From a virus, in IMG/VR virus record IMGVR_UViG_3300021963_004603, positions 1 to 20,476 of that record: a DNA stretch of 20,476 nucleotides. One strand, given 5' to 3'. This document shows positions 2,572-12,702 of this stretch, piece after piece (position 1 is the stretch's first letter; every line of letters starts with the position of its first letter). A program made the position numbers and the translations under genes. The notes under the pieces are model-generated. The model saw only the letters and a list, made by a program, of their open reading frames with translations. It had not been told where the DNA came from and ran no database searches.

Positions 2572-3378
2572 TTACCTTGTTGCAAACATATAAAAATTAC
2601 CTTCATCCACATTAAGCATGGATATATTCTTCAGTTTGATATTTTTCTTATAGAGTGTTGGATACTTTCTTACAAAATAATCCTTATTATCAACGTCAAA
2701 AATAATACCTTGAAAGGTTACAAGCATATCACTATCTTTGAATTGTTTAACAATAATGTCTCGATCTCTAAGTTGAATCTCACTCAACCCCCATGCGCTG
2801 AATAGCAAAGTCTTACTTGAAGCATTAATATCCTTGACATCCATTGCAAATTTAACCTGGGGGTAGTCTTTAAGATTAATTTTAGAATACACACTAATCT
2901 CTGGCAAATCTAGAATAGTATATTCACCTCTGTAACCTAATGCATCATATACCATTCTAGCAGATTCACCAATACCAGCACCTACCTCCACTATATGATC
3001 ATACTCATTGATATCCTTACCAGATAGCTCCAGTAATGTTATCCAATGATGAAGTGACTTAACTGTCCACACACTAATGTCCTGTAAGTCTTTCGATGGA
3101 GAGAAAATAGCATCAGTATAGGATTGATTAGTGTGACCGATGCGCCTTTCTTGAAGTGCTTTGGAGATAACTTCTTTACAGCTCTCACTCTGTCGGTCAT
3201 AGTAGCTCATAACGTCCTTTAAATACTCCATATCAAATGCAAGCAAATAATCAGTATATAAAGGAACTCTGTATACTATATAATCCGTTTTAAAATGTTC
3301 TGTTGGAGGATTATCGCGTGCAATAGTCGCAATATTATTCCAAAAGTTTGCCGTCTCAGCCGGCCAGTTTATTCTCAT
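2572..3378 (-). CDS. Putative SAM-dependent methyltransferase (sugar O-methyltransferase-like)
   Basis: A 268-residue protein with a Rossmann-type SAM-binding motif, IVEVGAGIGES at about residues 129-139, followed by a second acidic-strand motif ILDLPE (155-160) consistent with binding the SAM ribose. The layout, a long N-terminal helical part and then the nucleotide-binding fold, resembles putative sugar O-methyltransferases found in surface polysaccharide loci and some phages. The acceptor cannot be deduced. The start forms TAATG with the end of the glycosyltransferase gene, so the two are probably made together and may act on the same glycan. It could instead modify a base or a protein. 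The family assignment rests on motif and length only. Confidence 0.6.
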   Translation of the reverse strand: MRINWPAETANFWNNIATIARDNPPTEHFKTDYIVYRVPLYTDYLLAFDMEYLKDVMSYYDRQSESCKEVISKALQERRIGHTNQSYTDAIFSPSKDLQDISVWTVKSLHHWITLLELSGKDINEYDHIVEVGAGIGESARMVYDALGYRGEYTILDLPEISVYSKINLKDYPQVKFAMDVKDINASSKTLLFSAWGLSEIQLRDRDIIVKQFKDSDMLVTFQGIIFDVDNKDYFVRKYPTLYKKNIKLKNISMLNVDEGNFYMFATR

Positions 3379-4223
3379 TACTTTTTCTTTTTCAATTGAC
3401 TAGAATCAGCAGTAGCAGAGGCGCCAATGGTTGCCAGGTCAGCCAAGCTACCACCGAAGATATAACTACCAACGTGCTGGAGTTGCATCCAAGGACAGAA
3501 CCAGACTCTCAATCCAATCTTCTGGGCATGATAGCAGAAGTTATAGTCCTCAGACAAATAACGTTTGCTTTCAGGATCAATGATACAATCAAAGTATGCA
3601 TGGATCTCCCTACTACCATCGAAGTGCTCTGTACGAACGTGATCGGGTTTGTAGCTCAGTTCGGGATAGGCAGCGGCATACTTGGTGAATGTTTCTTTGC
3701 GTACCATCATGAAACCAGTACCAATTTCTAACACCTCTACTGGCTCACCTAATGGGATCTCTTTCTGTCCACCTTTAGGATTAAACACATAGTCACCTAC
3801 GTATTTCTCTAATAGGTTAGCATCCTCGTCTGCTACACCCTTATCAACAGCCAGTTTAATCTTCTCCCAGCTGATACATTTCTTAGGATATGGACCGCCG
3901 ATGACGTCATAATCACTCTCGTCTGTCATCAAAGCCATCAAGGCGATAACGTCTTGGGGGTTAAAGCCAATATCACTATCAATAAACATCAAGTGAGTAG
4001 CATCACTGCGCATGAACTCATCCACACAGTAGTTACGTGCCCGGGTGATCAACGACTCATTAAAGAGATAGTAAAGCTGTAAGGGGATGTTGTACTTGGC
4101 GCAGAATGCAGACAAGTCAGCAACTGAACGGCAATACATACCAGCGCACTGACCCCCGTACATGGGTGTGGCGACGAAGAGTTTCTTCTTCTGTAATTCT
4201 GCAATCTGTACTTCTATTTTCAT
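3378..4223 (-). CDS. Glycosyltransferase, family 2-like (GT-A fold)
   Basis: A 281-residue protein with GT-A features: an N-terminal strand KKLFVATPMYGG (about 13-24), a helix with SLITRARNYCVDEF (58-70) typical of phage GT2-like proteins, and FIDSDIGF (80-87), whose DSD is a DxD-type metal and nucleotide-sugar site. Further on, IGTGFMMVRKETF and YLSEDYNFCYHAQKIG (around 220-235) supply the acidic ED expected for the catalytic base region. The C-terminus is a lysine run after a Ser/Ala-rich tail. The donor and acceptor are unknown; candidates are virion protein, host surface glycan or modified DNA. The start is ATGA-coupled to the dUTPase-like gene and the end is coupled to a methyltransferase. 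Confidence 0.75.
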   Translation of the reverse strand: MKIEVQIAELQKKKLFVATPMYGGQCAGMYCRSVADLSAFCAKYNIPLQLYYLFNESLITRARNYCVDEFMRSDATHLMFIDSDIGFNPQDVIALMALMTDESDYDVIGGPYPKKCISWEKIKLAVDKGVADEDANLLEKYVGDYVFNPKGGQKEIPLGEPVEVLEIGTGFMMVRKETFTKYAAAYPELSYKPDHVRTEHFDGSREIHAYFDCIIDPESKRYLSEDYNFCYHAQKIGLRVWFCPWMQLQHVGSYIFGGSLADLATIGASATADSSQLKKKK

Positions 4224-4722: not shown

Positions 4723-5352
4723 TTAATCATCTCCAAAATAGTACGGATTTTCTACCGTTTTAAACTCACCTCTATTATATAGCGCCTTGGTCTCAAAGTC
4801 CATAAACAAAAACTTATTTGATGGTGTTGGTATACTACCTTCAAACTTCGTTGATGAAATGTTTAACTCATTATCGAAGAACATAGGGCTAATATCGTTC
4901 CTAAAAAGATAAGCTCCAGCCCCGTCATACCACAGACAACTAAAAGATCCGTCCACGTTGTTAATTTCATCTCTAGACGTATTGACAGCTCGAAGTAACA
5001 ACTGAGTATCCCAGTTCGTATCGTTGCCAAAGCGTGCCTGCATCTCTTTAACATAATTTGCCTTTATGATACCGTTATGCCAGAGAGCAGTAAACCACTC
5101 CCTTGCCGGGTGAATACTATCAAAGTCTCTTGCCTCTGTAGTTGGTGCCTGTATGTGAACGATACCATAGCCACCATCCTCTATCAAGTTAAGTAAATCT
5201 TTATCAAATGTGCCCAATCCTTTAACAATCACATGTAAGTCACCATGTAATGGTATAACAGAAAAAGAAAATGAATGACTGCCTCGATAGCTATTAAGAT
5301 CTATCAACTCAATCAGCTTATCTTTACTAAACGATCCTATAATTGCACACAT
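4723..5352 (-). CDS. Class II glutamine amidotransferase (GATase) beside queC
   Basis: A 209-residue single-domain N-terminal nucleophile amidotransferase. MCAIIG at the start places Cys2 as the nucleophile exposed after Met removal, as in PurF/GlmS (MCGI). The remaining class II landmarks are HIQAPT (66-71), WHNG (91-94, oxyanion hole Asn-Gly) and NWDTQLLL (113-120), followed by GSFSCLW. It would release ammonia from glutamine. It has no synthase domain of its own. The start forms TAATG with the queC stop, and in phage 9g and some archaea a Gat domain is fused to QueC, so the natural partner is QueC. It may feed ammonia for nitrile or amide formation, or convert preQ0 to an amidine or amide product. 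Which of these it does is inference. Confidence 0.75.
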   Translation of the reverse strand: MCAIIGSFSKDKLIELIDLNSYRGSHSFSFSVIPLHGDLHVIVKGLGTFDKDLLNLIEDGGYGIVHIQAPTTEARDFDSIHPAREWFTALWHNGIIKANYVKEMQARFGNDTNWDTQLLLRAVNTSRDEINNVDGSFSCLWYDGAGAYLFRNDISPMFFDNELNISSTKFEGSIPTPSNKFLFMDFETKALYNRGEFKTVENPYYFGDD

Positions 5353-6101
5353 TATTTAATTAGCTTATCCCAAGGTATCGCAACATTATACGGAATTGGA
5401 TCCTTAATGCCAGCTTTGGCAAAGTTAGCAATACGTTCACTGCATGAAGGACACTTCCCACAACTCTGCCCGGCCTCATTGGGATTGTAGCATGTGAGGG
5501 TGAATGCTAGTTCTACATTACCTAACTCATTGGCAATCATCAACTCATCGTACTTGGATAGGGCAGAGAATGGGGCCTCAAGACTGGCCTTATGTGAGCG
5601 ATTTTGTTCGGCAACAGCATTCATACTATCAACAAATCGTTGACTGGTATCCCAGTACCCGTACTCGTCATGTACTTGTAAGCCAGTAAAGACATGGGAT
5701 GCTTTATTAGACTCGGCAAATGAGAATGCCAGGGAGTTTAAGATCATATTACGAAACGGTACATATGTCTTTGGCTGTGGGTCACCTAATACGTCTTTGA
5801 TCGTTGGCATTGCAACACTCGTGCCGCCAATATTGGCTGATACATTCTTTACTATCTCACCTAAGATGCTTAGGTTAAGGATCTTATGGGCAATGTTCAA
5901 ATGACGGCACGTTGCTGCAGCCATTGCCAACTCACGTACCTGCTTCTGTCCATAATCATATGACAAAGCAAATACCTTATCCTTACCATACTTCTTTACC
6001 AGAATATAGGTAAGGATAGTAGAATCAAGTCCTCCAGATAGGACTGATACTACATTAAATGGCGTCTCTGGGAGCTTTGCCAGTGCTTGTTCTAAGTTCA
6101 T
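5352..6101 (-). CDS. queC: QueC, 7-cyano-7-deazaguanine (preQ0) synthase
   Basis: QueC converts 7-carboxy-7-deazaguanine to preQ0 using ATP and ammonia. The protein has the PP-loop SGGLDST at residues 22-28 and a four-cysteine zinc site near the C-terminus (C204, C214, C217, C220, within CYNPNEAGQSCGKCPSC), both hallmarks of the family. Length 249 is slightly above typical bacterial QueC (about 220-235). An AAAGG ribosome site lies seven bases before the ATG, and the gene begins inside the last 47 bases of the MazG-like gene. The stop overlaps the amidotransferase start. Together with FolE, QueD and QueE from the same window it completes preQ0 synthesis from GTP. Confidence 0.95.
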   Translation of the reverse strand: MNLEQALAKLPETPFNVVSVLSGGLDSTILTYILVKKYGKDKVFALSYDYGQKQVRELAMAAATCRHLNIAHKILNLSILGEIVKNVSANIGGTSVAMPTIKDVLGDPQPKTYVPFRNMILNSLAFSFAESNKASHVFTGLQVHDEYGYWDTSQRFVDSMNAVAEQNRSHKASLEAPFSALSKYDELMIANELGNVELAFTLTCYNPNEAGQSCGKCPSCSERIANFAKAGIKDPIPYNVAIPWDKLIK

Positions 6102-6291: not shown

Positions 6292-7217
6292 TATTGCCTC
6301 GGCGTCTTTGTGCAAGGAAGACCTGCATTAACAATTGCGCCATAGACATGCAGTAATCTAATATCAGTTGCACGTACGGGGTTAATATCAATACCACCAC
6401 GGCGTGTATACAGACATGCAACGAACAACTCTTTAGGGTTGATCAGGTCCTTAATACGCTTGTAAATACACTCACAAATCTCTTCATGGAAATGGTTCTC
6501 ACGTCTCATGGAGATGATGTATTGTAGTAACGATTCAGGTGTTACTGACTGATCACCTTTAATATGAATGTATACATCGCCCCAGTCAGGTTGATTGGTA
6601 ACACGGCAATTGGAACGGAGTGAATTCGAACGCCATCTCTCGTATCTACCTATGCTTGGAACTACTTCAAGAATATCTGCGCTCTCGTTATAGTTATTAA
6701 ACTCCATACCTTCTACATTACAGTATGTTTCTAGTGATGTAAAGTCACCAATGATCGGGCGTGTCGTATCTACATCACCTAGGAACAGACAGACGTCAAC
6801 CTCCCCACCAACAGCCTTTGATAGATCGGCGGCAATTTTATCCTCTAGCCTCCAAAGGTCTCGCAACTCATCTACAACACATGCCATGTTAAAGGAGTTG
6901 AGGTATAACTTAACTGATTTACTCTCTACAATGTTTGGGGTATCGGAACTGTAAGCGAATTTAATCCAACCTGATACAGGGAAGCCATTCTTAAGTAAGG
7001 TAGAGAACTCATATGCATTCCATGCATCACGTCCGGCAAAGGGTAAGTTACCTTCTTCAATACCATACTGTTCACGATTCAAATAACGAGGTACGGATAC
7101 CAGGAGACCTGGATCGACTGCATCTGGTGTCACATATGGTTTAACTACAGACCCATCACCTGCCTTACCTAGGTGGACGGATACTAATTTATTTAATTCG
7201 TCTTGTCTACTCATCAT
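6291..7217 (-). CDS. queF: QueF, preQ0 reductase (NADPH-dependent, long form)
   Basis: QueF reduces the nitrile of preQ0 to the aminomethyl group of preQ1. The family signature ESKSVKLYLNSFN is at residues 98-110, the catalytic thioimide cysteine is C204 in LRSNCRVTNQPDWG with the partner Asp at 211, and HFHEEICE (242-249) and YTRRGGIDINP (270-280) match the long E. coli-type QueF closely. Length is 308 against 282 in E. coli. The start is one of two adjacent ATGs (7217 or 7214), ATGA-coupled to the kinase-like gene. QueF in a DNA-modification cluster indicates that preQ1, not only preQ0, is the intended DNA base or its precursor. Confidence 0.95.
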   Translation of the reverse strand: MMSRQDELNKLVSVHLGKAGDGSVVKPYVTPDAVDPGLLVSVPRYLNREQYGIEEGNLPFAGRDAWNAYEFSTLLKNGFPVSGWIKFAYSSDTPNIVESKSVKLYLNSFNMACVVDELRDLWRLEDKIAADLSKAVGGEVDVCLFLGDVDTTRPIIGDFTSLETYCNVEGMEFNNYNESADILEVVPSIGRYERWRSNSLRSNCRVTNQPDWGDVYIHIKGDQSVTPESLLQYIISMRRENHFHEEICECIYKRIKDLINPKELFVACLYTRRGGIDINPVRATDIRLLHVYGAIVNAGLPCTKTPRQ

Positions 7218-7753
7218 CTTCCTTCTAATAAATCCATAATCGAATTAACTCTGTTACGAACAGAGCCTTTAACACGATGTAAGGTTAGTTTCTTATTAAT
7301 AATAATAGCTTCAAACATATCTGCTATTTCGTTTCTAAAATCAATATCTACACTACGCACCCCATCATCTACTATATCAAACTCAGGTTCAATATAGAAA
7401 ACATGATTGTATTGCTTCCATACCCGGTTAAAAACTTCTGTAGCATAGGCAACAGTCTGATTATTGACCTTTGCATGCTTATACAAATAGGTAGTATATA
7501 CCAGTCCATCTAAGGCTGTACGATCGGTTAACATTCTGTCGTGCATGAATACATTCACAATATGCTCATTCATAATAAGGCGCTGGGTTGTATCAGTCCC
7601 ACCCTCATTGATAGGCAACCCATAACTCTTCACCCGACGAGTAACCTCATCGCATATAATAAAGTTATTTTCAGAGAATAGTTTCTCCGAACGTAAAGCA
7701 TTCAATAGAGTAGTCTTACCTACTGATTGAGCACCCGTTATACCTATACGCAT
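7214..7753 (-). CDS. P-loop kinase/ATPase (NadR-like, AAA_28-type)
   Basis: A 179-residue single-domain P-loop protein beginning MRIGITGAQSVGKTTLLNAL, with Walker A GAQSVGKT (7-14), a CDEVTRRVK segment (about 35-43) like the E-x-x-R region of NadR-type nucleoside kinases, a MLTDRTALDGL strand (about 73-83, Asp-Arg) like the DR(S/T) of deoxynucleoside kinases, and a basic C-terminal helix. The frame opens at 7783, but the ATG at 7753 is chosen because the Walker motif then sits where expected and an AAGGA site precedes it. It sits between the formyltransferase and queF. It may phosphorylate a nucleoside or other small molecule; the substrate is not evident. Confidence 0.7.
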   Translation of the reverse strand: MRIGITGAQSVGKTTLLNALRSEKLFSENNFIICDEVTRRVKSYGLPINEGGTDTTQRLIMNEHIVNVFMHDRMLTDRTALDGLVYTTYLYKHAKVNNQTVAYATEVFNRVWKQYNHVFYIEPEFDIVDDGVRSVDIDFRNEIADMFEAIIINKKLTLHRVKGSVRNRVNSIMDLLEGR

Positions 7754-8298
7754 ATACCCATTTCCTTCATTGCAAATATCCACGCCGCCAGAGATGTGCT
7801 CTTTAACATATCAAATGTTTCTTCTAATGAGCGCGCATTATTGGTAAGATGAACGCTCTTTATGATTCTACCTGCATCTACCTCAGGTACAACCTCATGT
7901 ACTACGCTGCCTAAGAACTTATAGTTCCCTTTATTCTCCCATGTTCTCTCCTGGGGATCCTTACCTTTTAAATCTGAATACAAATCGATTGCACCTGGAT
8001 GCCCATTGAGCATCTTATACTTACCACACACCTCGGCTGGAATGATTCTAAGATAGCCATGGAGGGTGATTATAACATCATCTGGATTATAGATCACGTT
8101 ATCCATCATATAAGCCATCAACCTATCATGCTTGGCTGCCATAATAGTACCCATAGATCTGAGATCGGGATGGTATTTCCACTTATCCTCTAGCATGTTA
8201 TTAGTAACAATGAGGTCTGGCTTGACGCCCAGGGCATAAGATAGGTTGACTATCTCCGAACCTGTCTGACTAAAGAATGCAATCCACTTCTTAGCCAT
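7744..8298 (-). CDS. dpdN: Formyltransferase, PurN-like; candidate dPreQ1 formyltransferase (DpdN)
   Basis: A 184-residue protein with the formyltransferase fold of GAR transformylase. The catalytic trio is visible as N98 and H100 in MLNGHPG and D141 in VPEVDAGRII, matching the N-x-H and D of PurN. GSVVHEVV (130-137) corresponds to the PurN GxTVHxV strand. It would use 10-formyltetrahydrofolate. It overlaps the DpdA-like gene by eight bases and lies two genes before queF, so purine synthesis is a less likely role than formylation of the preQ1 aminomethyl group in DNA, the activity reported for phage DpdN. The family is certain; the substrate is inferred from context. Confidence 0.82.
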   Translation of the reverse strand: MAKKWIAFFSQTGSEIVNLSYALGVKPDLIVTNNMLEDKWKYHPDLRSMGTIMAAKHDRLMAYMMDNVIYNPDDVIITLHGYLRIIPAEVCGKYKMLNGHPGAIDLYSDLKGKDPQERTWENKGNYKFLGSVVHEVVPEVDAGRIIKSVHLTNNARSLEETFDMLKSTSLAAWIFAMKEMGICV

Positions 8299-9076
8299 TA
8301 CAAATAGCCCTAAAGCATTCGATGTTATAGAGTACCAATTGTAGTTCGTATGAACTGAGTTTACTATCGATCATGGTATGGAGTTTCTGGGAAGGTTTAT
8401 CTTCTAGTCCGTTCCTACCATTATACCTCATTCCCTTGATAGCGGCAACTACTGGGTTAGATGTATCTACGCTATCAATCCATTCGTAATCAGAATAGCT
8501 ATCGAACTCCTGTGGCAGTCCACAACCAAGTAGGTGATGGGGCTTATCGGTGTTGATAACGTTATCAGTTAGTAGACGATGGATGAGTGCATCTCGTCCA
8601 TACATGTAGTGATGGTACTTTGTAGGGAGATATCCATTGAGCTCAGGGTTAATAAAGAAACTATAGTCAAAGGAGATAGCAACCTTATCAACCAATGGTT
8701 CTACCTCCTGGTAACACCATTTAATTTCTTCATATGTCTTACCCTGCACCACTCCGATAGACTTACATCCGTTAACTGGCTTCCAACTTTTGGCATTAGC
8801 GACTGTCTTCTCAGCATTCTCCAATGCATCAGGTATGACATAGTAAGTAGGTTGTAGTTTTTCAATCCAAGGATAAAACTTATCAGCCTCAAAGGCCTCA
8901 CCCAACTCAAAGATAGAGTTATCAAGAATAATCTCTCGTCCTATCTCCTTGGCGCGTACAAATTTATCCCAATACTCCTCATTCTCTTCAAACAGATGAA
9001 CAAGGGCATAATCATAATCTGTAACCTCTTGTACACGGTTAAAGATACACAGGGGTGCTTCATGGGCGATCTTCAT
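8291..9076 (-). CDS. dpdA: DpdA-like DNA guanine transglycosylase
   Basis: A 261-residue TIM-barrel protein related to tRNA-guanine transglycosylase (TGT). Visible echoes of TGT are ILDNSIFELG (50-59, substrate-binding Asp region), YVIPDA (79-84), GVVQG (108-112, the G(I/V)VQGG strand), HLLGCGLP (181-188, the YLMGVG loop) and WIDSVDTSNP (199-208), which lines up with the nucleophile Asp of TGT (MFDCVxPTR). The C-terminal CxCxxC...H zinc site of tRNA TGT is not visible. The combination of compact size, missing zinc motif and neighbours FolE/QueCDEF points to DpdA, which swaps guanine in DNA for a 7-deazaguanine. The frame can start at a TTG at 9079; the ATG at 9076 has a GAGG site. The DpdA subfamily cannot be set without a tree. 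Confidence 0.85.
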   Translation of the reverse strand: MKIAHEAPLCIFNRVQEVTDYDYALVHLFEENEEYWDKFVRAKEIGREIILDNSIFELGEAFEADKFYPWIEKLQPTYYVIPDALENAEKTVANAKSWKPVNGCKSIGVVQGKTYEEIKWCYQEVEPLVDKVAISFDYSFFINPELNGYLPTKYHHYMYGRDALIHRLLTDNVINTDKPHHLLGCGLPQEFDSYSDYEWIDSVDTSNPVVAAIKGMRYNGRNGLEDKPSQKLHTMIDSKLSSYELQLVLYNIECFRAICNG

Positions 9077-9461
9077 CAAATACCTCTAATAGTTTTTTAG
9101 TTTCTTGAGCCTTTTCACGCTCACGCTTTTGATAGTATACAGTATTAAGCCAGGTCATACGATCGATGATACGATCAATCTCCGGTCTAGTTAACTTAAC
9201 AATCTCAGTTACTCCAGATACCTTATCTTCAATCCATAAGTTCTTTGGATAGAATGCTTTGAATGTCTCCTCCACACCCTTCATCTCCTCCAATGGGCCA
9301 TAAACGGTCTTCATGATCTTGATATCCCATTTATTGTATTGCTCAGGCTCATAGGTAAACCTATCCATTGCATCATATGAGGAGGTATGTCCAAACTTAA
9401 AGAACTCAACCTCTTTGGTCTGCTTATTAGTAAAGCGTGCCAAGTACATCTTACCGTTCAT
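9060..9461 (-). CDS. Hypothetical protein, possible GIY-YIG/T5orf172-like domain
   Basis: A 133-residue protein. The N-terminus KMYLARFTNKQ (4-14) and KFGHTSSYDAMDRF (22-35) has the spacing of a short strand, a turn, and KxGxT...R as in T5orf172/GIY-YIG-type domains, but the second motif is not the classical YIG and a catalytic Glu is not certain. The C-terminal third is a charged helix rich in Arg, Glu and Lys (KREREKAQETKKLLEVFDED). It is ATGA-coupled to the gene before and overlaps the dpdA start by 17 bases. It could be a nuclease-like accessory of the modification genes or a degenerate binding domain; I assign no function firmly. Confidence 0.6.
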   Translation of the reverse strand: MNGKMYLARFTNKQTKEVEFFKFGHTSSYDAMDRFTYEPEQYNKWDIKIMKTVYGPLEEMKGVEETFKAFYPKNLWIEDKVSGVTEIVKLTRPEIDRIIDRMTWLNTVYYQKREREKAQETKKLLEVFDEDRP

Positions 9462-9913: not shown

Positions 9914-10606
9914 TTAAAGTTTTTCGTTATATGTCTGCTGTAAGGCAATGTTATCGAAGAACTCTTTCTTTACGTCTGCCTGATGGAATTGACCATGAAG
10001 AACGGTTGTCTGGGTAAGGGAAGAATGGGCATTGATTCCTCTATTCTCACAACATCCATGCCTGGCAGCAATGTATACTGCAACGTCAGGTGATTCAGTT
10101 GACTTCATGATAGAGTTAGCAATATGGGTGCACAATTCTTCCTGTAATGTACCCCTACGTGCATGCCATTGAGCCACACGTGCATACTTAGACAGACCAA
10201 TCACCTTATTACCTGGAATAATACCAATGTATGCAATCCCCCTTACCGGTTGATGGTGATGGGAACACATTGATTTAAGTTCTGCCCTTACTACCAGCAT
10301 ACCTGTATAGCGTTCTGTTCCGTCGTTAGGGAATGCAGTAGAGTCTGGTTCGGGGTAATAGCGACCGGACATGATCTCGTCTACATACATCTTAGCCAGA
10401 CGCTTCCCTGTGCCCTTACTATTGGGATCATTCTCGGTATCAATGAGTAAGGAACTTAAGACTCCATTGAACTTCTCTGTTAACTCGTTCACCAATAACT
10501 CTCGATTATCATCATCAAGGTATTCAGAAATATTATCACAAGCAAAGAACCGTTTACCGTCCTGCTTCATTCTCTCACGTAACACATCAGAAAAATATCG
10601 TTCCAT
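9914..10606 (-). CDS. folE: FolE, GTP cyclohydrolase I
   Basis: GTP cyclohydrolase I opens GTP to dihydroneopterin triphosphate, the first step towards 7-deazaguanines. The zinc ligands are visible as C114 and H117 in SMCSHHHQPV and C185 in RHGCCENRG, matching E. coli C110, H113 and C181. The conserved core KVIGLSKYARVAQWHARR (134-151) follows at the right distance, and SSLTQTTVLHG (195-205) matches the conserved TxT...G region near the C-terminus. Length 230 is close to the E. coli enzyme (222). It lies two bases after queD and is followed directly by a promoter. The same product could also feed folate synthesis, but the QueD/QueE neighbours make deazaguanine supply the likely role. Confidence 0.95.
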   Translation of the reverse strand: MERYFSDVLRERMKQDGKRFFACDNISEYLDDDNRELLVNELTEKFNGVLSSLLIDTENDPNSKGTGKRLAKMYVDEIMSGRYYPEPDSTAFPNDGTERYTGMLVVRAELKSMCSHHHQPVRGIAYIGIIPGNKVIGLSKYARVAQWHARRGTLQEELCTHIANSIMKSTESPDVAVYIAARHGCCENRGINAHSSLTQTTVLHGQFHQADVKKEFFDNIALQQTYNEKL

Positions 10607-10608
10607 AA

Positions 10609-11085
10609 TTATCCCACAAATTCATTATCTTCTCTATGACCGACTCTCATTGCCATGTTTGAGTCAGTCTCCCTCACCTCAACTTTACTACACCATACAC
10701 GTTTGGCCTCTTCGCCCCAGCCCGGTAACATAATTGTGTTGATGTATTCGTATAGGAAGTCAGCCAATCCTTCACATCCGGTCTTCTCTACCTCGGTGAT
10801 CTTAGCCAATCCTAGTTTGCCTAGTTTCAGTAACTCCTCACGCTGGGGGTCATCTTGTGCAACCAACAACGTATGATCGAACCAGTCTTCTAAGTTATAC
10901 TTTAGATCTTTTAGACCACCAAAGTCAACGCACCAGTTACGGGCATCCAAGGTATCACATTCGAATTCAAAATGGAAGGATAGAGCATAACCGTGAATCA
11001 GATTACAATGACTATCGGCCCTCCACTGTCTATATGCTACAGGTCCTAAATGTCTGTAGGTCTTTGTTGAAATATATTTTGCCAT
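10609..11085 (-). CDS. queD: QueD-like 6-carboxytetrahydropterin synthase, divergent
   Basis: QueD converts dihydroneopterin triphosphate to 6-carboxy-5,6,7,8-tetrahydropterin. Here the active-site stretch reads ADSHCNLIHGYAL (23-35): Cys27 aligns with the catalytic cysteine and His31 with one zinc ligand, but the position of the usual third ligand (HGH) is Tyr33, and the N-terminal AAH ligand region reads VAY. The FDHTLLV segment (69-75) supplies the catalytic Asp-His, and RNWCVDFGGLKDL (49-61) matches the vDF/L segment of the family. Length is 158. The start at 11085 is set by TAATG overlap with queE and a GGGGA site; an ATG at 11097 has no ribosome site. The T-fold assignment is secure, but the zinc site differs from the textbook one. 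Confidence 0.88.
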   Translation of the reverse strand: MAKYISTKTYRHLGPVAYRQWRADSHCNLIHGYALSFHFEFECDTLDARNWCVDFGGLKDLKYNLEDWFDHTLLVAQDDPQREELLKLGKLGLAKITEVEKTGCEGLADFLYEYINTIMLPGWGEEAKRVWCSKVEVRETDSNMAMRVGHREDNEFVG

Positions 11086-11936
11086 TAGGTTCCCCATTCA
11101 TTTTTAAATAGCGGTACTTGTAAACGGTCACTATATCTCCATCCTTTTTTCATGGCGTATTCAGCAACCTGTCTATTATTAAGAGCGTACACCCGTTCAA
11201 CCCCACCAACAGGCATAAGGTAAACAGGCCCGTCAAAGCCTTTGTTACGATACTCATCTACAGCCCTTTCCGCCTCATGCACGTGAAGCATATCACTTAC
11301 TACGAACTTAAGATAGGTAAACCCAATCATAGAGTATTGTGCTACAACGTTAGGGATGATTGCATCTTCCCATTTCTCACCTGATGCCGATAGCTTGGGT
11401 GATACTGAAAAGGTAAGACAATCGTAACCCCCTGTTGCAAACGTCCACTCACTTAGGTAGTTATAGAACTCCGGTGATAGTTCTTGTGTACCGTTTGTCT
11501 CAAATGTTATCTCCTTTAATCCTTGCATCTTAGGATGTGAGAGTAGATCGGGATATGCACGCTGCCATCCTAGTAAAGGCTCACCTCCGGTGATTACGAG
11601 ATGTTCGTCTTTCCATTCCTTGTACGGTAGGAGATCCACAATCGAATCGGCCAGTGAGTCAGTAGGGATAACAGGACTGAGATGCTTAAAACGAACATCC
11701 CAAGAAGCATATGAATCACAACCAGTAGAAACAAGAGGAAGACTTTTATAGGTCTTGTAATTGTCTGCATTGTGTGCTATCACTTCTCTTTCTTGACTCT
11801 TCTCACCTGCTGGCATACCAAAGCCATCACAGGTAAAATTACAGCCAAAGGTTCTTAGAAAGACAGAAGGTACGCCCATATAGCGACCCTCACCTTGAAT
11901 GGAGTAGAACAACTCCGATACTTTTAATTTCGACAT
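11085..11936 (-). CDS. queE: QueE, 7-carboxy-7-deazaguanine synthase (radical SAM)
   Basis: QueE rearranges carboxytetrahydropterin to 7-carboxy-7-deazaguanine. The N-terminus VSELFYSIQGEG is the standard QueE opening. The iron-sulfur cysteines are arranged as C32 and C36 (GCNFTC) and then, after 36 other residues, C73 in STGCDSYASWD, which aligns with the usual WCDTxYAW. The third cysteine is thus displaced by an insertion. HLVITGGEPLLGWQ (radical SAM GGE motif) and EITFETNGTQ follow. Length is 283, longer than minimal bacterial QueE because of the insertion. The start at 11936 has an AGGAG site at ideal spacing; a GTG two codons upstream is less likely. It heads the queE-queD-folE trio. Confidence 0.93.
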   Translation of the reverse strand: MSKLKVSELFYSIQGEGRYMGVPSVFLRTFGCNFTCDGFGMPAGEKSQEREVIAHNADNYKTYKSLPLVSTGCDSYASWDVRFKHLSPVIPTDSLADSIVDLLPYKEWKDEHLVITGGEPLLGWQRAYPDLLSHPKMQGLKEITFETNGTQELSPEFYNYLSEWTFATGGYDCLTFSVSPKLSASGEKWEDAIIPNVVAQYSMIGFTYLKFVVSDMLHVHEAERAVDEYRNKGFDGPVYLMPVGGVERVYALNNRQVAEYAMKKGWRYSDRLQVPLFKNEWGT

Positions 11937-11972
11937 TAACACTCCTAGTTATACGTGGAAGGGCACGATAGA

Positions 11973-12491
11973 TTATATAGCTTGTTTTAGCTCACGCGCC
12001 TGTTGTCTATCGAGTTGCTTCTTCTTATTAAGTGCCCGTTGTAGGTGCACAGGGTTAGCTCTTTTAGTATAGCTAATCCCATTTAAATGATCAAGTTCGT
12101 GTAAGATGGCACGGGCGGTCATACCAATAAATTTCTCTGTATGAAACTCACCCGTTACATCTTGATACCTTACCTTAATGATTTTTGGTCTCTTAATCTT
12201 AACAACCATGTTAGTATTAGAGGCACAAGTCTCTTCTAATATAATGTGTTCGGTTGTCTCGTCGATCAACTTAGGATTAAAGATCACTAATGGGTCTTGG
12301 GTGTGAAAGACACATACACGATAAGGTAGTCCACATTCGTTGGCCGACAGACCTATACACTTACGTTCAATTAATGTCTCAAGTAAGTCACGGGCAAGCA
12401 TAACCGGGTCGGTAGGTGGATCCTTAAAGTCAAAAGTAGGAATCTTATTGTGTAATAATTCGTTACTCGGGTCAACTAATTTTAATACCAT
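11973..12491 (-). CDS. def: Peptide deformylase-like protein
   Basis: A 172-residue metallohydrolase of the peptide deformylase family, which removes the formyl group from new protein N-termini. Motif 3 HELDH is intact (zinc ligands and catalytic Glu). Motif 1 reads IGLSANECG instead of xGLAAxQxG, so the usual Gln is Glu. Motif 2 reads EETCASN instead of EGCLS, keeping the zinc cysteine but losing the Gly and Leu. The start at 12491 has an AGGTGG site; an upstream GTG frame extension to 12521 is less likely. Marine T4-like phages often carry a deformylase. Here it directly precedes the deazaguanine genes, 36 bases before queE, so a non-protein substrate should be considered, but nothing in the sequence proves it. 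Confidence 0.85.
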   Translation of the reverse strand: MVLKLVDPSNELLHNKIPTFDFKDPPTDPVMLARDLLETLIERKCIGLSANECGLPYRVCVFHTQDPLVIFNPKLIDETTEHIILEETCASNTNMVVKIKRPKIIKVRYQDVTGEFHTEKFIGMTARAILHELDHLNGISYTKRANPVHLQRALNKKKQLDRQQARELKQAI

Positions 12492-12702
12492 TCTGCCACC
12501 TTTCCGACCAACTCTTACCACAGGAGAGACATCTCTTATTGGTTGTAGTTACATTCATATCGGGGTTAATATTGACCCCTTGTTTGTTATAGGTAGGTGG
12601 GAAGTACATACCAGTAACGGAACTAGGACCTTCCTGTATCATACAGTCATCCCTCATACATCCTGGCCCACCATCTGTATACTCTGAAAGAAACTTTGTC
12701 AT
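12472..12702 (-). CDS. Small protein with possible zinc ribbon, 76 aa
   Basis: A 76-residue protein coupled to gp46 by ATGA and overlapping the deformylase start by 20 bases. Four cysteines (C15, C20, C58, C61) form two pairs, CMRDDC and CLSCGKSW, a layout that could bind zinc, separated by a tyrosine/proline-rich and Asn-rich stretch. From memory, short proteins beginning with a similar MRDDCMIQEG segment occur near gp46 in marine T4-like phages. No function can be stated. Confidence 0.65.
   Translation of the reverse strand: MTKFLSEYTDGGPGCMRDDCMIQEGPSSVTGMYFPPTYNKQGVNINPDMNVTTTNKRCLSCGKSWSERWQNGIKIS

Follow-up and report, generated by a model that had tools for sequence, protein, structure and literature searches.

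In Enterobacteria phage 9g and in archaea, where 7-deazaguanine synthesis belongs to the archaeosine branch, a class II glutamine amidotransferase (Gat) domain and QueC, the 7-cyano-7-deazaguanine (preQ0) synthase, form a single polypeptide with the Gat portion first. These fusions retain the substrate-binding Arg of class II Gats, read YPDN at the YPDC motif of QueC, lack the Gln of YxQxHxxE and have dG+ as their product, as documented for the phage 9g protein (PMC6884629). Stand-alone QueC proteins, such as those of E. coli, Dp-1 and Skure, have no adjoining Gat gene, and the known nitrogen donor of QueC is ammonia (PMC13329287). Modified bases have been measured in two Vibrio phages relevant to the present study. 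In nt-1 DNA, dPreQ0 is the main modification (232 per million nucleotides) and is accompanied by dADG (72) and dG+ (44), the last of which was attributed to ArcS (PMC6884629). In Vibrio phage 6E351A, 15% of dG is modified, and the only modified nucleoside reported, with a mass of 295 Da, is dPreQ1 (PMC12028318).

A separate gene of the PHROG family phrog_12378, which overlaps queC by one base, is present in KVP40 (KVP40.0125) and nt-1. For KVP40.0125, a match to a Pfam glutaminase family is already mentioned in the KVP40 record, and this protein and its nt-1 homolog are described there only as hypothetical or as a "nucleophile aminohydrolase". The phrog_12378 protein does not seem to be named as a part of the pathway in Hutinet 2019 or in the table for KVP40 of PMC8056088.

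Organization of the 7-deazaguanine cluster

The window analyzed here is the whole of a 20.5-kb IMG/VR viral contig from a T4-like phage. The genes of interest are all on its minus strand, arranged in the order QueE, QueD, FolE, a small open reading frame (ORF), a TGT-like DpdA candidate, a formyltransferase-fold protein and a NadR-like P-loop protein, followed by QueF, another small ORF, QueC, Gat and a dUTPase/dCTP-deaminase-like gene. The features considered in this study are as follows.

4723–5352, minus strand: Gat, stand-alone class II (Ntn) glutamine amidotransferase-like protein, 209 aa, phrog_12378, starting with MCAIIGSF; motif residues Cys2, R23-G24, Gln68 (in place of the glutamine-binding Arg), W91-H92-N93-G94, K97 and D115
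5352–6101, minus strand: QueC, preQ0 synthase, variant subfamily (YGQKQ..E, YWDT), 249 aa
6291–7217, minus strand: QueF, nitrile reductase converting preQ0 to preQ1, two-domain type, with intact catalytic and NADPH residues
7214–7783, minus strand: NadR-like P-loop (AAA_28) protein, between QueF and the formyltransferase
7744–8298, minus strand: formyltransferase-fold protein, DpdN-like candidate (putative preQ1 formylation)
8291–9079, minus strand: small TGT-like protein, candidate DpdA, phrog_19058, with conserved D53 and, after HLLG, conserved D205-T-S
9914–10606, minus strand: FolE, GTP cyclohydrolase I
10609–11097, minus strand: QueD, 6-carboxytetrahydropterin synthase
11085–11942, minus strand: QueE, 7-carboxy-7-deazaguanine synthase (radical SAM)

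The subfamily names DpdN and DpdA are used provisionally for the products of 7744–8298 and 8291–9079, respectively.

A preliminary description of this DNA had reported a separate Gat, bearing Cys2 and WHNG, that is TAATG-coupled to QueC at 4723–6101 in a cluster that also encodes QueF, and each of these points was confirmed. On the coding strand, the QueC/Gat junction reads ATTAAATAATGTGTGC, and the final A of the QueC stop codon TAA doubles as the A of the Gat ATG, giving a one-base overlap. WHNG occupies residues 91–94 of Gat. The window QueF retains all of the residues corresponding to E. coli QueF E89, C190, D197, H229 and E230, as well as the NADPH motif ESKSxKLYLNS, and scored below the curated NCBIfam cut-off for QueF (231.8 vs 293.45).

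Gat has a class II amidotransferase fold and an altered substrate site

Profile searches with Gat gave no match to any Pfam or NCBIfam family, and the only family detected was phrog_12378, which is annotated as "unknown function". An AlphaFold2 model built from an alignment of 60 relatives (mean pLDDT 94, pTM 0.90) has the Ntn fold of class II amidotransferases, and the nearest solved structures found by Foldseek were the glutaminase domains of GlmS, PurF, EgtC and AsnB (best E-value, 2.8e-9). The resemblance extends to the active site, since alignment to GlmS, PurF and AsnB showed that the N-terminal Cys2, the Asn-Gly oxyanion pair and the Asp that binds the alpha-amino group are all present. 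In 60 diverse Gat sequences, Cys2, Arg23-Gly24, His92-Asn93-Gly94 and Asp115 are invariant. Unlike the four structural relatives, Gat carries no fused synthase domain and has invariant W91 and K97, which are specific to its lineage (60 sequences).

The substrate site of Gat differs from those of GlmS, PurF and AsnB, the three enzymes against which it was checked, in having Gln68 in place of the substrate-binding Arg, and this Gln was found in all 113 distinct stand-alone Gats. The corresponding segment reads HTRW in GlmS, HVRY in PurF, N-x-RAEPTTE in eight phage Gat-QueC fusions and H-x-Q-[AS]-P-T in the phrog_12378 family; the position of the invariant Lys97 is Ala in the aligned fused Gats. 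In human asparagine synthetase, Arg-48 contacts glutamine and belongs to the substrate-recognition network (PMC6748925). Lys97 of Gat aligns with Tyr-78 of the human enzyme, a residue of its domain interface, and by this alignment would be expected at an interface with QueC. As judged from these alignments, the invariant change from Arg to Gln, which the preliminary description does not mention, is the most surprising new fact about the family, and because of it glutaminase activity cannot be assumed.

The partner QueC is a variant preQ0 synthase

The window QueC matched the Pfam QueC family (E-value, 1.2e-51) and scored above the NCBIfam equivalog cut-off (161.8 vs 150.3 bits). Like the stand-alone QueC proteins of E. 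coli, Dp-1 and Skure, it retains the PP-loop motif SGGxDS, VPxRN, the zinc cysteines and the preQ0 signature residues Y35, R99, Y131 and Y189. Unlike them, nearly all Gat-partnered QueC proteins depart from the canonical sequence at two positions, likewise absent from the preliminary description. The His of YxQxHxxE (His39) is replaced by Gln in 86 of 87 partners, and the Cys of YPDC (Cys134) is replaced by Thr in 84 of 87, where the motif reads YWDT; the three exceptions are KVP40-like. This Cys was kept in E. coli QueC and in eight phage QueC proteins without a Gat, and eight fused Gat-QueC proteins have Asn at the same position. Therefore, the YPDC Cys is usually lost in both types of Gat-associated QueC, by Asn in the fused and by Thr in the partnered proteins, and we hypothesize that its loss may be related to the route by which ammonia arrives. 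Among annotated phages, the count of the partner QueC subfamily matches that of the Gat records described below, and the next QueC relatives drop to 35% identity.

Distribution of Gat and its pairing with QueC

The Gat family is carried by many T4-like aquatic phages, and at least 372 relatives were found in IMG/VR. The family is also present in 51 records of annotated phages, which include Vibrio phages of the KVP40/nt-1 kind, Vibrio phage 2.275.O and Pseudomonas phage pf16. Among 84,980 prokaryotic genomes, Gat was found on only four contigs, all from draft assemblies and all with phage-type queuosine clusters. Gat loci were recovered better with an alignment as the query, and single-sequence scans with other members added few new loci.

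Pairing was counted among 96 distinct Gats whose upstream sequence extended to 1.2 kb or more. QueC was located within 2 kb upstream of Gat in 95 of them and within 70 nt in 75, the commonest arrangement being the −1 overlap (48 loci); in the single exception (L094), QueC lies elsewhere in the same cluster. Pairing conserved to this extent is not due to chance. Where the two genes are not adjacent (L025, L026–L028, L035, L039, L041, L052, L053, L055 and L060, and also L045 and L057), the intervening gene often appears, by eye from the sequence, to encode a HAD-type phosphatase or a YhhQ-like membrane transporter.

Gat follows QueC irrespective of the later steps

The association of Gat with the later steps of the pathway was counted in 70 Gat neighborhoods with at least 5 kb of upstream sequence. 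QueF was present in 55 and absent from 15, and the QueC-Gat pair remained in both groups. The formyltransferase was always accompanied by QueF (34/34 loci), indicating that these two travel together and that Gat does not follow them. On ten of the contigs without QueF, several of which are fragments, neither QueF nor an ArcS domain was found anywhere on the contig. The complete genome of nt-1 lacks QueF and encodes an ArcS-like DUF5591 protein instead, KVP40 has QueF and no ArcS, and both keep QueC-Gat. The near-invariant pairing is thus independent of QueF, and Gat tracks QueC, whose step is common to all branches, whatever the QueF or ArcS status. Correlation of distance matrices was not specific in this respect, as the value for Gat and QueC (r = 0.64) was no higher than that for Gat and QueF (r = 0.70).

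The ArcS-like protein of nt-1 (L004, 4318–4998) occupies the place of QueF, and the close relatives KVP40 and 1.081.O have QueF, so that the final step of the pathway has been exchanged naturally among these phages. The NadR-like P-loop protein (7214–7783 in the window) mostly travels with QueF and the formyltransferase (28 of 34 formyltransferase loci) and could act on a preQ1-type substrate.

Relationship to the fused Gat-QueC proteins

The window pair resembles the fused Gat-QueC proteins in combining a class II Gat with QueC in a 7-deazaguanine cluster. In contrast to the fusions, it consists of two genes with QueC first, has Gln68 and YWDT, and is accompanied by QueF downstream in the pathway. 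In the QueC tree, the partner proteins formed one clade (support 100/100) and the fused QueC proteins also formed one clade; in the Gat tree, the stand-alone Gats (100/99) and the fused Gats (97/95) formed separate clades. A joint clade of partnered and fused QueC proteins was not rejected by the AU test (p = 0.451). Profile-profile comparison of the stand-alone Gats gave scores of 55.7 with GlmS, 52.9 with the fused Gats, 47.9 with PurF and 38.1 with AsnB. The first two of these scores are about equal and give no ground for placing Gat nearer to GlmS than to the fused Gats. The stand-alone Gat showed almost no similarity to the single Gat sequence of 9g, for which the profile-to-profile comparison is the fairer one.

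The preliminary description had suggested a two-gene version of Gat-QueC, a proposal that stands as an analogy. As to descent, stand-alone and fused Gats form separate clades and differ in substrate-site residues, and the AU and profile results are compatible with a shared origin as well as with separate ones. It had also held that grouping of Gat with asparagine synthase or PurF-like enzymes, together with the lack of a QueC interface in co-folding, would speak against the proposal, and on this point the outcome is mixed, since GlmS and PurF are about as close by profile as the fused Gats. The phrog_12378 profile also matched one control genome, that of Sulfolobus acidocaldarius; the match may be an archaeal Gat-QueC and is possibly a lead on the origin of the Gat family.

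Possible roles of Gat

We propose that Gat is probably a dedicated nitrogen-supplying partner of QueC, and that the two genes would encode an amidotransferase-assisted preQ0 synthase with QueF acting next. Cys2, N-terminal after removal of Met, would hydrolyze an amide donor, most likely L-glutamine, and the ammonia would pass from Gat to QueC, which would use it to convert CDG to ADG and then to preQ0. QueF would reduce preQ0 to preQ1, which the TGT-like DpdA candidate would insert into DNA and the candidate formyltransferase might further modify. Because QueF and a formyltransferase are encoded, the final base of the window phage is expected to be derived from preQ1 and may be formylated. 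The genes, the class II fold, the retained catalytic core and the pairing are shown here, and glutaminase activity of Gat, its physical contact with QueC and the transfer of ammonia between them are what we infer. That bacteria and other phages manage with QueC by itself counts against such a role. A QueC-Gat model folded as a single linked chain, read through the L023 stop, had a pTM of 0.65 and gave no asparagine-synthetase-like two-domain match, the QueC and Gat portions matching known structures only separately; the linkage blocks the N-terminal Cys, which makes this a weak test.

A different function, in which the pair is a split Gat-QueC that makes the formamidine G+ from preQ0, so that the phage carries dG+ beside preQ1-type bases, would accord with the product of the 9g fusion, with the PTTE-like motif that follows the substrate residue in both Gat types, with the AU result and with the trace of dG+ in nt-1 DNA (PMC6884629). 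However, QueF accompanies most Gat loci, the fused proteins keep the Arg and have YPDN where the partners have YWDT, and nt-1 possesses the pair but has mostly dPreQ0, its ArcS-like gene being able to explain the dG+ trace. The phage 6E35.1a (MW824377), which we equated by name with 6E351A, has the order FolE-DpdA2-QueF-QueC-Gat with the same one-base overlap. Its Gat shows the Gln motif, its QueF is intact, and dPreQ1 is the only base published for it (PMC12028318); the expected mass of dG+ is 308 Da vs the 295 Da reported, although trace dG+ is compatible with that measurement. The chemistry of 6E351A and nt-1, together with the gene order, argues against a second guanine mark made by Gat, and we regard this function as distinctly unlikely. 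The preliminary description had left the choice between ammonia delivery and two different guanine marks. Ammonia delivery is the better supported, because Gat follows QueC rather than QueF, staying when QueF is present, absent or replaced by ArcS, and because 6E35.1a, with its QueF-QueC-Gat order, was reported to contain dPreQ1 alone; the two marks are disfavored for the same reason. Gat would then act in the formation of preQ0, which every branch has in common, with no separate G+ mark.

The invariant Gln68 raises the question of the donor. It is unlikely, though worth considering, that the pair makes preQ0 with a Gat that uses another amide donor or substrate and a QueC whose active site has changed to match (His39 to Gln, Cys134 to Thr), forming a new kind of nitrogen-transfer couple. 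Another reading, which we consider rather unlikely, is that Gat no longer uses L-glutamine and that Gln68 recognizes another amide, such as asparagine, a dipeptide-like donor or a deazaguanine amide (e.g., ADG), with different chemistry for QueC. It would explain why Gln68 and the lineage-specific W91 and K97 are invariant and why His39 and Cys134 of the partner are altered too; against it stands the retention of D115, which holds the alpha-amino group of glutamine, and of the remaining catalytic core, suggesting an amino-acid amide as the donor. The loss of the substrate Arg and the strict pairing could also mean that Gat has lost its amidotransferase activity and serves to stabilize QueC as a regulator or non-catalytic subunit, but the invariance of Cys2, N93, G94 and D115 is not expected of a dead enzyme, and this is very improbable. 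Finally, QueC relatives modify proteins encoded by neighboring genes (PMC13329287), and Cap9 is among the structural neighbors of the window QueC, so the N-terminus of Gat might be a substrate of QueC, as in the Cap9/QatC partners that receive an N-terminal deazaguanine. This is scarcely credible, since the described QatC target has an N-terminal glycine rather than cysteine, QueC keeps its preQ0 signature and a phage with the QueC-Gat pair makes dPreQ1.

If Gat supplies QueC, the missing nitrogen donor of QueC would be a large unnamed phage family whose gene almost always lies immediately behind that of QueC. preQ0 is an ingredient of the protective modified DNA of these phages, and a Gat that, most likely, feeds nitrogen to QueC for preQ0 might explain how phages in ammonium-poor water make enough preQ0-derived bases. 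A Gat gene next to QueC would then be no sign of archaeosine by itself, which corrects the earlier view. In addition, the coupled changes make it possible to test directly what His39 and Cys134 do in QueC and whether class II enzymes require the substrate Arg.

Other features of the loci

In L051 (3897–4565), an in-frame stop splits the Gat gene, which also does not begin with MC; this may reflect a broken gene or a sequencing error. A weak tblastn match in MW202615 (L006) proved to be a different phage Gat, phrog_4736, located beside amidoligase genes and outside the phrog_12378 family. In the window, a peptide deformylase gene (11973–12521, minus strand) adjoins QueE, and a comparable neighbor is present in L069, L076 and L091. 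The dUTPase-like gene is separated from the sliding clamp by genes for a conserved phage protein, phrog_1574 (3378–4223, minus strand), which is glycosyltransferase-like by eye, and by a methyltransferase-like ORF (2572–3378, minus strand).
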